From: Tepidisphaeraceae bacterium
GTDB taxonomy: Bacteria; Planctomycetota; Phycisphaerae; Tepidisphaerales; Tepidisphaeraceae
DNA: 64,000 nt
Direction: 5' to 3'
Assembly: GCA_035998445.1 (NCBI GenBank)
Contig: DASYHQ010000052.1
Span: forward strand, 186,001-250,000
Both the position numbers and the translations under genes were made by a program. Positions 2,030 through 56,896 of the stretch are shown here, in pieces (within the stretch, counting starts at the first letter, position 1; the number at the start of each line of letters is the position of its first letter). The notes under the pieces are model-generated. The model saw only the letters and a program-made list of their open reading frames with translations, searched no databases and had not been told where the DNA came from.

Positions 2030-2845
2030 TCAGTGGTTCAACGAGACGTTGCGCTTGGGTTGGGCGGCGTTCAGCTTGGCGTCGTGGCGCGCGATCCAGT
2101 TCGATTTACGCACGACCTGTTTCTTCGTTCGCGCGAAGTCATCGTCGGCCTGCTCGCAGTAGCGCGCCAGCCACGCGTCGCGCTGCGCGTCGGTGATCGG
2201 CAGCTTCGTCGTGCTGTACCAGAACTGCGCTAGATCCTTCACGATCCACCGCCGGGCGAAGAACCGCGGCAACGGTGAGACGCGGGCGGCGTCGATCAGG
2301 CGGATGTCGGTCGTCGGGTCGTTCGTGTTCAGGAAGAAGTGGCACAGGTACAAATCGCGATGCCGCAGCTTCGCGCGATGCAGCTTGGCGGCGAGGTCGG
2401 CCATCGCATCGCGGACGGTGTCGAAGGCGATCTGCTTGCGCTCGATCAGTTTCTCGGCATCGTCGTAGCCCATCGCCAGCAGGTCTTCGGTGATGATGAA
2501 ACCTCGGCCGTCATGAAGTAGACCGGCTGCAGCGAAGGGGACGCTGAGAATGCCTGCTCTTTTAAGGAGTATTACGCCGACTTGTTCAGCATTCGGTCCG
2601 AACAGGCGCAACGCTTCAGGCCGCTTCCATCGCTTTATGTGAAGCCGAATCGAGCGTCCGTCCTTTAGCTTCGCATCCAGCGTACAGTTCTCGCGATCTG
2701 GAAGAATCCGCCACGCTTTGATGTCGGGATGTTCGTATACGCTCTCGCCGTCCACGAGGCCCACGTCACGCAACAGGCTCGCGTACGCCGACTCGGCACG
2801 ATAGAACGCACCATCGTCTTCTACAACGCGGCTTGTGGTGCTCAC
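2030..2845 (-). CDS. Kdo/WaaP-type lipopolysaccharide kinase family protein
   Basis: 271 aa from GTG at 2845, whose GTGA overlaps the purU stop at 2842-2844, so translation is probably coupled. It has a protein-kinase-like fold of the lipopolysaccharide kinase (Kdo/WaaP) family: nucleotide-binding lysine in RLHIKRWKRP (K71), catalytic loop HRDLYLCHF (162-170; the usual loop Asn is a Cys/His here), and the metal-binding IDAARV (184-189, DFG equivalent). The likely role is phosphorylation of lipopolysaccharide core sugar (Kdo or heptose), fitting the GT4 gene 5 bp downstream. An open frame runs further upstream but lies over purU, so the coupled GTG start is preferred. The kinase fold is confident; the substrate is inferred. 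Confidence 0.8.
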   Translation of the reverse strand: MSTTSRVVEDDGAFYRAESAYASLLRDVGLVDGESVYEHPDIKAWRILPDRENCTLDAKLKDGRSIRLHIKRWKRPEALRLFGPNAEQVGVILLKRAGILSVPFAAAGLLHDGRGFIITEDLLAMGYDDAEKLIERKQIAFDTVRDAMADLAAKLHRAKLRHRDLYLCHFFLNTNDPTTDIRLIDAARVSPLPRFFARRWIVKDLAQFWYSTTKLPITDAQRDAWLARYCEQADDDFARTKKQVVRKSNWIARHDAKLNAAQPKRNVSLNH

Positions 2846-3735
2846 GCGTCGTTCCCCGCGTTCATGAACCGGCTGATGCCCGGTTTGAAGATCACCTTGC
2901 CGTCCACCACAACCAGTTCCTCGTCCAGGAACAACTGCACCGACTTGCTCAGCACATGCGCTTCCAGTTCGAGGCCCTTGCGCTTCACGTCGTCCAGCGA
3001 ATCCTGGCCGACGTTGATGTGGAAGACGTCCTGCAGGATGACCGGGCCTTCGTCGAGCTGTTCGGTGACGAAGTGGGCCGTGCAGCCGTGCACGCGCACG
3101 CCGCTCTCGTAGGCCTGCTTGTATGGGGCTGCCCCGGGGAAGTAGGGGAGCAGCGAGGGGTGAATATTGATGATCTTGTGGCGGTACTTCTGTACCAGCG
3201 TCGGGGGCAGGATGCGCATGTAACGCGCCAGCACGACGAGGTCGGCCGCGTACTGCTGCAACTGGTCGGCGAGCCACTTGAAGTGCGCCTCAAGGTCGCT
3301 GGCCGACTGCCACGCGAACGGCACACCGGCGGCCTTGGCGATCGGTTCGAGATCGGGATGGTTCCCGAGGATCACCGCGACCTCACCATGTAGTTTGCCG
3401 TGGTGGGCATCTTCCAGCAGTTGTTCGAGGCAGTGCGCTTCCTTACTCACCAAAAGCGCAACCTTGCGTTTGCGCGCTTGCGAGTGCAGGTGGACGCGCA
3501 CCTCCATGTCGATCTTCTGCCCGAGGCTGAGCAACCCGGTGATCAGGCCGCCCAGGTCGGTGGTGACCTCCTTCAGGTCGACGAGCATGTCCATGACGAA
3601 GAACCCGCGCACGACGCGCTGTTCGATGTCCTCGATGTTCACGCCGCGCTCGGCGAGGTACGTCGCGAATTGCGCGACGACGCCTTTCTGGTCCTTCCCC
3701 AAGACGCTGACGACGGCTAACACGTTGGCGGGCAA
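2842..3735 (-). CDS. purU: Formyltetrahydrofolate deformylase PurU
   Basis: 297 aa. It hydrolyses 10-formyltetrahydrofolate to tetrahydrofolate and formate in the cytoplasm. An N-terminal ACT domain (about 5-85, ERGVNIEDIEQRVV) precedes a formyltransferase-fold domain with ILGNHPDL (122-129), the catalytic N-x-H of IINIHPSLLPYFPGA (N190, H192), VHGCTAHFV and the catalytic aspartate in QLDEGPVILQD (D229). Length is close to the bacterial norm of about 280-290. The start is TTG, supported by AAGGAG at 3744-3749 eight bases upstream. It is the first gene of the run with the Kdo-kinase-like and GT4 genes, an odd metabolic partnership. Confidence 0.93.
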   Translation of the reverse strand: MPANVLAVVSVLGKDQKGVVAQFATYLAERGVNIEDIEQRVVRGFFVMDMLVDLKEVTTDLGGLITGLLSLGQKIDMEVRVHLHSQARKRKVALLVSKEAHCLEQLLEDAHHGKLHGEVAVILGNHPDLEPIAKAAGVPFAWQSASDLEAHFKWLADQLQQYAADLVVLARYMRILPPTLVQKYRHKIINIHPSLLPYFPGAAPYKQAYESGVRVHGCTAHFVTEQLDEGPVILQDVFHINVGQDSLDDVKRKGLELEAHVLSKSVQLFLDEELVVVDGKVIFKPGISRFMNAGNDA

Positions 3736-3891: not shown

Positions 3892-3898
3892 AGCTTTT

Positions 3899-3963
3899 CG
3901 TGGCACGGGTTTTCAACCCGTGATTTTCTCGAGGGGGAACACGGGTTGAAAACCCGTGCCACG
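3899..3963. repeat. Perfect inverted repeat, family G
   Basis: Two 24-bp arms, 3899-3922 and 3940-3963, are perfect complements. Each arm is itself a hairpin (CACGGGTT-TTC-AACCCGTG), so the structure can fold as one long stem or two short ones. It is one copy only in this window. Confidence 0.85.
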
Positions 3964-4107
3964 CTGCGATCAACTGATAGCCGCTGTAGACCGGGCGTGC
4001 TGCGGCGGGAACGACGTGCGATCCGCAGGGGCGTGGCTACGCCCCACGGCAGCCGGCGAGCCGCTTGCGTTATCGGACAACCCTAGAGGGTCATTCGACG
4101 TCTGCGA

Positions 4108-4275
4108 GGTCATTTCACATGCATGTGAAGTCGTTTGACATGCATGCCAGGTCGTTTGACATGCATGCCAAGTCGCTTGACATGCATGTCAGGTCGTTTG
4201 ACATGCATGTCAGGTCGTTTGACATGCATGTCAAATCGTTTGACATGCATGTCAAATGGCTTCACATGCATGTCG
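4108..4275. repeat. Tandem array of eight 21-bp units centred on the palindrome TGACATGCATGTCA
   Basis: Eight direct units of exactly 21 bp begin at 4108, 4129, 4150, 4171, 4192, 4213, 4234 and 4255. A typical unit reads GGTCGTTTGACATGCATGTCA. Units 4-7 carry the perfect 14-bp dyad TGACATGCATGTCA; unit 1 carries TCACATGCATGTGA, changed on both sides so that symmetry is kept; units 2, 3 and 8 are imperfect. The period equals two turns of B-DNA, so all dyads face the same side. There are no unique spacers, which excludes CRISPR. Because 21 is seven codons and the unit lacks stops, several frames on both strands are open across it; these are not taken as genes. The function is unknown; a cooperative protein-binding array is the most natural reading. 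Confidence 0.9.
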
Positions 4276-4392
4276 AATGGCGTGCTGTCACGCGTCAGTG
4301 TGCCGGAAAGGATTTTTGTGGCCCTATTATTGGCCGTCGGCGATTGGGGTGGGCTGGGCACCGTATGACGGATCACGCGCTGGCGAAACCCA

Positions 4393-4496
4393 TGTCATCC
4401 CGAAGGGAGCCTTTGCGACCTGAGGGATCTCCCAAGGCCCGCACCGTCAGTCGGTCGAGATCCCTCAGGTCGCCTTAGGCTCCCTTCGGGATGACA
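4393..4496. repeat. Palindromic repeat, family C (copy 1)
   Basis: Inverted repeat with arms of about 44 bp opening TGTCATCCCGAAGGGAGCC and closing with the complement GGCTCCCTTCGGGATGACA. The arms also share CGACCTGAGGGATCTC / GAGATCCCTCAGGTCG. Other copies: 47229-47331, 48957-49061, 63252-63355. Confidence 0.85.
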
Positions 4497-4560
4497 ACCC
4501 TGCGTGTGGGCACTCACTTGATCCGGCAGGCAGTGCCTGACGAGACATCGGCGGGCGGGG

Positions 4561-5604
4561 TCACTCGCCGCTGAACCGTGCGCCCAGCAGGGCCATGAAG
4601 CGGGTCGTGTTGTCGTGGTAGATCTTCTGCAGCACCTCGTCCGGTAGCGCCAGGCCGCGCAGGGTGGGCTGGGCGTCGGGGGGCAGGTCGGGGTCGGTGA
4701 TCGGGCTTTCACCGACGTAAGCCGTCTCCCAGAGCTTGCGGTGGCACCAGAATCGGCTGGCATAAAAATCGAAGTCGCGATCGTCGCCGCTCACCTGGTC
4801 GGAACCGAACAGGATGCGGTCCTGATTGCGGATCATAAAATCACGAGCGGCGTCGCGGCGGGCGCTGATCTCGCGCACCATCCAGCGCGTCGCGCTGCAG
4901 TCGAGCCATAGATCAGGGAACTTGTCCAGCAGCCGTTGCAGGCGTGGCAGGTTCTCTGGATTGCCACCCAGATGCGCGCCCAGCCAGGGGTGACCGCGAT
5001 AGGCTTCGAGGGTGTCTTCCCAGAGCTTGTAGTGTTCCTCGCGCTGGCCGTACCGGCCGCAGTCGGTGTACTTGGAACAGTACCAGGTGTCGGGGTCGCC
5101 CACGTGGGTCATGATCGCCATCTTGCGGGCGACCAGCTCGTCCATCACCCGGCGAATGGCGGGGCTGTCGAGGCGAAGTTTAGAAGCCTCCATGGTCGCC
5201 GGCGCCATGTGGAACTTGGCGATGCGGCTGCCCAGGTTGTAGAAGGCCTCGATCTTCAACAGCCAGTCGTCCAGGAAGTTGGGCGACGGGTCGCGCCACT
5301 TCGGAATCGCGATGAAGTGCAACCGGCCGGGCCAATCGCGCGCGAGCGTGAGGGCCTCTTCGATCGGCGTCATCGTGATGAAGGTGTTAATGCCGTAATG
5401 GTCGGCCGCTTCGAACCACGGCTTGGCGTGCTTGGCGGCGAACAGGTGACAGTGGGCGTCGATGACGGTGCCGCGCACCTTCGGCCGGGGCATGGGGGCG
5501 CGAAAGTCGATGTGCGTGCGGTTGTAGTCGGCAGGCACCGCCGGCGCGAACGCCGGTGGGGGCGGCGGGGCTTCAACCAGGGTGGGTGCGGCGACGGTGG
5601 TCAT
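4561..5604 (-). CDS. Amidohydrolase family protein (Amidohydro_2 type)
   Basis: 347 aa from ATG at 5604 (an alternative GTG at 5655 would add 17 residues; neither has a convincing ribosome site). A metal-dependent hydrolase TIM barrel: the N-terminal HxH motif in IDAHCHLFAAK, histidines in MAIMTHVGDPD and LGAHLGGNPE, and the C-terminal metal aspartate in RILFGSDQVSG. This pattern fits the Amidohydro_2 family (ACMSD-like decarboxylases and hydrolases). About 45 N-terminal residues are proline/alanine rich and not part of the barrel. The substrate cannot be told from the sequence. It is followed on its strand by the repeat-filled gap 3736-4560 and preceded by the Rieske-like gene 76 bp away. 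Confidence 0.8.
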   Translation of the reverse strand: MTTVAAPTLVEAPPPPPAFAPAVPADYNRTHIDFRAPMPRPKVRGTVIDAHCHLFAAKHAKPWFEAADHYGINTFITMTPIEEALTLARDWPGRLHFIAIPKWRDPSPNFLDDWLLKIEAFYNLGSRIAKFHMAPATMEASKLRLDSPAIRRVMDELVARKMAIMTHVGDPDTWYCSKYTDCGRYGQREEHYKLWEDTLEAYRGHPWLGAHLGGNPENLPRLQRLLDKFPDLWLDCSATRWMVREISARRDAARDFMIRNQDRILFGSDQVSGDDRDFDFYASRFWCHRKLWETAYVGESPITDPDLPPDAQPTLRGLALPDEVLQKIYHDNTTRFMALLGARFSGE

Positions 5605-5680
5605 CTTGCTGGCGAATGGTAGCGGTGGACTGGCGGGCGAGACAAGCCACGGCACGCGTTATGAACCGCCGTCGGCGATG

Positions 5681-56591: not shown

Positions 56592-56896
56592 CTCTTCTGT
56601 AGGACAGGCATTCCTGCCTGTCTCTCCCCCGTCAGCCTCTCCCCCCGTATTCACAGAAGAGCTAGACGCGAAGGTCGCGAAGGAGCCGCGAAGGTGGCGA
56701 GAAGAAGAGGTTGAACCACAGAGGGCACAGAGGGCACAGAGGGCACAGAGGGCACAGGGGGCACAGAGGCAGACACAGAGCAGGGAGTCTTTTCGATTGG
56801 GATTTGGAGCTTGGTCATTTGTTTGGCATTGGGGCTTGGGATTTTGTTTTTCCAATACGGGGTGAGACAGGCAGGAATGCCTGTCCTACAGAAGAG
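56592..56896. repeat. Nested composite repeat, family F
   Basis: Outer arms CTCTTCTGTAGGACAGGCAT with TCCTGCCTGTCTC (56592-56624) and complement GAGACAGGCAGGAATGCCTG with TCCTACAGAAGAG (56864-56896). Near the inner edges CCCCCGTATT faces AATACGGGG. Inside lie a 9-bp tandem repeat (56721-56765) and a family H arm, GAGCTTGGTCATTTGTTTGG with CATTGGGGCTTGGG (about 56810-56840). Nothing coding is seen in 56525-56923. Confidence 0.8.
56721..56765. repeat. Five copies of a 9-bp tandem repeat
   Basis: GAGGGCACA occurs four times in a row from 56721, followed by GGGGGCACA. It lies inside the family F composite repeat. Confidence 0.85.

Follow-up and report, generated by a model that had tools for sequence, protein, structure and literature searches.

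Tandem repeats of 20-21 nt have been described in bacterial genomes by Subirana and Messeguer as satellites that combine a constant size with a variable sequence, with several families in one species (PMC8161180). They are mostly non-coding, dispersed and patchily distributed between species, and their units carry a short characteristic signal; either a protein that needs a constant repeat size or small RNAs were proposed to explain them, and their length equals two helical turns (PMC8161180). The satellites have been called enigmatic; published examples include those of the Bacillus simplex group and Paenibacillus. The array studied here, located in a window of 64,000 nucleotides (the whole stretch of DNA that was analysed), belongs to this class. 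Satellites of the class have at least four tandem units of 20-21 nt, and this array has eight of 21 bp; within the genome 21 bp is the dominant size and the units are unrelated; and the arrays are non-coding, that of the window being intergenic and another, C5, containing stops in all frames. The described satellites carry a short signal common to most arrays of a species; here ATGCAT occurs in part of the arrays (at least 11 in the genome), others having GTCGAC or different cores. No such element had been known to the initial annotation in this group, but the class had already been described in bacteria. Symmetry of the units goes unmentioned in PMC8161180, in which 'palindrom' has no occurrence, and is apparently new with respect to that paper; its priority over the authors' earlier, larger survey of 2020 is not certain.

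REP and BIME elements (e.g. PMC3733652) likewise consist of many copies of intergenic palindromic DNA, but they are palindromes of 20-40 bp that occur singly or in small clusters and do not form head-to-tail 21-bp arrays. Closer to their description than the array itself are two long inverted repeats (window positions 3897-3965 and 4390-4499) within the array's own intergenic space, which look like dispersed REP-type elements and copies of which adjoin other arrays of the genome. Iterons and the centromere arrays of ParB/ParR systems are phased direct repeats under dimeric proteins, present at one or a few sites beside initiator or partition genes. The genome analysed here differs in having many arrays with differing cores and no initiator or partition genes beside those checked.

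The array of the window

The eight units of 21 bp reported initially were confirmed by TRF, which placed them in one indel-free array (Table 1). The ATGCAT cores start at 4119, 4140, 4161, 4182, 4203, 4224, 4245 and 4266, each step being exactly 21 bp, and together span 4119-4271; 8 of the 12 ATGCAT hexamers of the window fall in the array. It sits in an 825-bp intergenic space between two genes of the minus strand, called with a simple hexamer model. Every unit has a dyad centred on ATGCAT, as the initial annotation had it, but the length of 12-14 bp given there is only a rough average of perfect dyads that measure 8-18 bp. The sequences quoted for units 1 and 4-7 were correct, while units 2 and 3 (TGACATGCATGCCA) and unit 8 (TCACATGCATGTCG), altered on one side only, had been omitted. 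Because these three are one-sided, the claim that left and right changes match came down to unit 1, and matched pairs in the array numbered 57 as compared with 55.4 in shuffles (p=0.22).

Table 1 Features of the array and its neighbourhood (window positions)
Feature	Sequence	Positions	Strand	Details	Source
Tandem array	consensus GTCGTTTGACATGCATGTCAA	4109..4274	.	period 21, 7.9 copies	TRF
Unit 1 dyad	TTCACATGCATGTGAA	4114..4129	.	16 bp perfect, ATGCAT at 4119	
Unit 2 dyad	CATGCATG	4139..4146	.	8 bp perfect, A.C mismatch next; one-sided change	
Unit 3 dyad	CATGCATG	4160..4167	.	8 bp perfect, A.C mismatch next; one-sided change	
Unit 4 dyad	TGACATGCATGTCA	4178..4191	.	14 bp perfect	
Unit 5 dyad	TGACATGCATGTCA	4199..4212	.	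14 bp perfect	
Unit 6 dyad	TTTGACATGCATGTCAAA	4218..4235	.	18 bp perfect	
Unit 7 dyad	TTTGACATGCATGTCAAA	4239..4256	.	18 bp perfect	
Unit 8 dyad	ACATGCATGT	4264..4273	.	10 bp perfect, C.C mismatch next; one-sided change	
purU-like gene		2842..3735	-	ACT + formyl transferase domains	Pfam
Amidohydrolase-family gene		4561..5655	-	Amidohydro_2	Pfam

Arrays in the genome, in relatives and in other bacteria

A search of the whole genome, as proposed in the initial annotation, showed the exact unit to be unique to the window locus, yet arrays of the same kind are many. At least ten further ATGCAT arrays are present (C5, C26, C30, C33, two in C61, two in C17, C18 and C9), which in a loose search had only ATGCAT and the 21-bp step in common. 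A pattern of three ATGCAT hexamers with gaps of 5-35 bases permitted matched the genome 40 times in the forward direction, as against no match for the reversed control, which excludes chance as the origin of the window array. In 34 of the 40 triples the spacing was exactly 21+21. The other six all lie inside the C26 array, where one step measures 20 bp and an ATGCATGCAT overlaps. The period proved not to vary; a variable one would, by the initial annotation's own criterion, have told against its reading. Genome-wide, ATGCAT occurs 116 times against a Markov expectation of 103 and is neither avoided nor strongly enriched.

We also surveyed 1.22 Mb, 21% of the 64-contig assembly, without ATGCAT as a query. 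This unbiased survey yielded about 25 non-coding arrays of 20 or 21 bp, the size of 21 bp dominating all longer tandem repeats alongside some 20-bp repeats and multiples; extrapolated, it corresponds to roughly 100-120 arrays per genome. Their sequences are mostly unrelated to each other, with ATGCAT, GTCGAC, a TTCCGTGC-AAGT-GCACGGAA type and a 20-bp CCGGA(A/T)GATATTT type as recurring cores. The two halves of the C30 and C61a arrays are mutually inverted with the 21-bp phase kept. At L039:2601-2852 and L041:9757-9951, one half of the array is inverted relative to the other, from GTCAC to GTGAC spacers and with an intact 21-bp phase. In an ATGCAT array of twenty units (L037:9525-9944) the order of the spacers is partly duplicated, which amounts to a higher-order repeat, while the spacers have otherwise diverged strongly.

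According to Pfam, ten ATGCAT arrays have unrelated neighbouring genes (dnaX, polA, glycogen synthase, purU, BacA, phospholipase, ABC transporter and others); these share no function, and no initiator or partition gene adjoins these arrays. The search for a cognate protein among the neighbouring genes was dropped for want of a common function. A first gene model hinted at a depletion of arrays between co-oriented genes, but under a stricter model 10 of 20 arrays lie there, near expectation.

ATGCAT arrays were found in 3 of 24 relatives of the same family, and in a sample of the class (298 genomes including the source genome) five genomes have arrays of four cores, with all controls at zero. 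In a phylum-wide sample, triples outside the class were mostly of mixed spacing, as by chance. Of two relatives of the family sampled at random, one had a single array in 320 kb and the other had none in 200 kb; since such relatives have few or no arrays, the function of the arrays is not essential to the family. Between genera, no synteny of ATGCAT arrays was observed in the loci compared. An exact scan of genome contigs for the paired unit returned two loci, one in a spirochaete and one in another planctomycete. In the spirochaete (G298, L161-L165), more than one contig bears 21-bp arrays, several in all, with ATCGAT or ATGCAT cores; some of the ATCGAT-centred units alternate with ATCGAA variants. 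In the planctomycete, a regulator gene of the GntR family is immediately preceded by two ACATGCATGT dyads (L020:7028-7058) with a spacing of exactly 21 bp. This pair resembles the window array in its dyads and spacing but comprises two sites only, straight upstream of the regulator of which binding is presumed; it may be regarded as the array in a natural form of two units, and is a candidate operator. The paired unit was found in no viral contigs, and a link with phages or viruses was rejected.

Dyad symmetry and core conservation

For each array the best whole-unit dyad symmetry was compared with that of column-permuted units, a procedure that keeps composition and homogeneity. The window array is symmetric over the whole unit (p=0.013) and over the spacer alone (p=0.012). 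For 40 arrays the symmetry sum was 25.1 versus 19.3 under column permutation (z=15.9), with 30 of the 40 individually below 0.05; these tests treat the arrays as independent, and a few share ancestry. Because some arrays had been found through the palindrome, the test was repeated on arrays found by TRF only. Fifteen such arrays of the same genome, all lacking ATGCAT, were symmetric (z=8.7), as were two from the spirochaete (z=3.4); symmetry was absent from the control, which consisted of tandem repeats from this genome with a different period (z=-1.3). With the core omitted, the 15-bp spacers of the ATGCAT arrays remained symmetric (z=8.0). Across 16 arrays the flanks of ATGCAT vary in sequence and keep their complementarity, with 50 of 80 pairs complementary versus 26 expected (p=0.0002, the lowest value attainable with 5000 shuffles; C61b and G010a belong to one unit family and lack full independence). 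Where arrays have diverged, the six-column block with the highest conservation coincides exactly with the palindromic hexamer, ATGCAT in C5 (p=0.0004) and C26 (p=0.0016), GTCGAC in C52:168 (p=0.002) and C18:155 (p=0.024). Arrays C17_241, C18_179 and G011 have little symmetry.

The symmetry resides in the consensus of each array. Within arrays, changes in the two arms are not compensatory, with 1426 complementary cells versus 1415 in shuffles over 29 arrays, and upkeep of the symmetry by such changes was rejected as being at shuffle level (window array, p=0.22). One consensus with independently drifting arms fits the half-sites of a dimeric protein better than it fits hairpins or palindrome repair. 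The initial reading of the locus as a binding array for a symmetric protein is supported in so far as the dyads are phased and symmetric, but not in its view that matched changes or repair maintain them. Symmetry, measured in a spirochaete and in the present planctomycete-like genome (so placed by related loci and gene content), is a second conserved feature of 20-21 nt satellites, for which earlier only size had seemed conserved, and it yields the concrete prediction of a dimeric DNA-binding protein that requires the two-turn phase.

Possible function of the arrays

We propose, with about an even chance of being right, that the array is a non-coding satellite whose units are double-stranded binding sites for putative homodimeric DNA-binding proteins. 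Each unit would consist of two half-sites in opposite orientation, about one helical turn each, joined at a palindromic hexamer (here ATGCAT). Homodimers would occupy the successive dyads, which at a distance of two helical turns all point to the same side of the DNA, and neighbouring dimers could touch and cooperate to form a filament or cluster, with a possible role in nucleoid architecture or insulation. Since the neighbouring genes are unrelated, such a role appears more probable than the regulation of a single pathway. The proposal draws on the exact phase, the symmetry of whole units, the preferential conservation of the hexamer, the independence of half-site changes, the many dispersed arrays and the dyad pair beside the GntR-family gene. 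That one genome has several core types implies either a set of related proteins or a single, loosely specific one, and unrelated cores would be awkward for a single sequence-specific protein. Also at odds with dimer binding are the neighbours without a common function, the scarcity of arrays in the two family relatives sampled, the three weakly symmetric arrays named above and the hairpin-like array C18:318594. A broader and rather doubtful proposal is that the 20-21 nt satellites of distant bacteria are generally dyad-symmetric, built of inverted one-turn half-units with a palindromic hexamer of their own for each type, and serve as landing arrays for cooperative homodimers in phased filaments; if true, they would be a bacterial counterpart of satellite-based chromatin.

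The arrays might instead be mutational or selfish products, palindromic 21-bp units made and amplified by template switching and slippage, the symmetry being a relic of the founder and no protein being involved. We consider this somewhat unlikely. It would agree with the patchy occurrence of arrays among relatives and their lack of synteny in the loci compared, with their location amid other dispersed inverted repeats, and with the inverted halves of C30 and C61a, in which the phase was kept as from strand switching at palindromes. It leaves unexplained, however, why the period is 20-21 rather than another size, why repeats of other periods are asymmetric and why the palindromic core is kept where spacers have diverged, and ongoing repair predicts matched changes within units, of which there were none above shuffles. 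Action as RNA, through transcripts that form long hairpins (regulatory RNA, a sponge or double-stranded RNA), strikes us as improbable. Small RNAs have been proposed for satellites (PMC8161180), and the window array folds as one long RNA hairpin (-119.8 kcal/mol, z=-14.5), but self-complementary units will fold well in whatever array they occur, and no fixed period of 21 bp is needed for a hairpin. Unit order is neutral to pairing over the whole array (z=1.7, no array with p<0.05), for which reason a whole-array hairpin was rejected. Compensatory changes, at shuffle level overall, do occur in the arms of C18:318594 (G000:C18:318588-318756) around a four-base loop (p=0.004), and this array may be different from the others. 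A comparison of G.T wobbles with A.C mismatches as a test for RNA gave 165 versus 147 cells, the cells not being independent. No Rfam family reached its gathering score, and the sub-threshold matches to miRNA models were taken as chance hairpin resemblance.

Phased palindromic direct repeats do resemble iterons and ParB/ParR-type arrays, and the initial annotation had suggested a centromere-, iteron- or silencer-like site. A special site through which one locus is replicated, segregated or silenced is nevertheless very improbable, given that 1.22 Mb contain about 25 arrays, where one or a few would be expected, and that these occupy ordinary intergenic spaces next to unrelated and partly housekeeping genes (dnaX, polA, glycogen synthase, purU), the window array itself lying between purU and an amidohydrolase gene, and given ten ATGCAT arrays without an adjoining initiator or partition gene. 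Scarcely credible, finally, is a coding heptad repeat, SFDMHVK, of a small protein. Twenty-one bases equal seven codons and one frame per strand is open across the window array, which we take as chance, but stops interrupt every one of the six frames in the C5 array, the symmetry and core conservation are seen at the level of DNA, and a 20-bp class exists too.

The open reading frames through the array, at 4065-4478 (+) and 4110-4376 (-) of the window, would encode the heptads SFDMHVK and FDMHVKR; no heptad-encoding plasmid was found. Genome annotation may easily list such frames as hypothetical proteins with repeats. Elsewhere in the window, a nine-base tandem repeat, CACAGAGGG, is present in 5.9 copies at 56717-56769.
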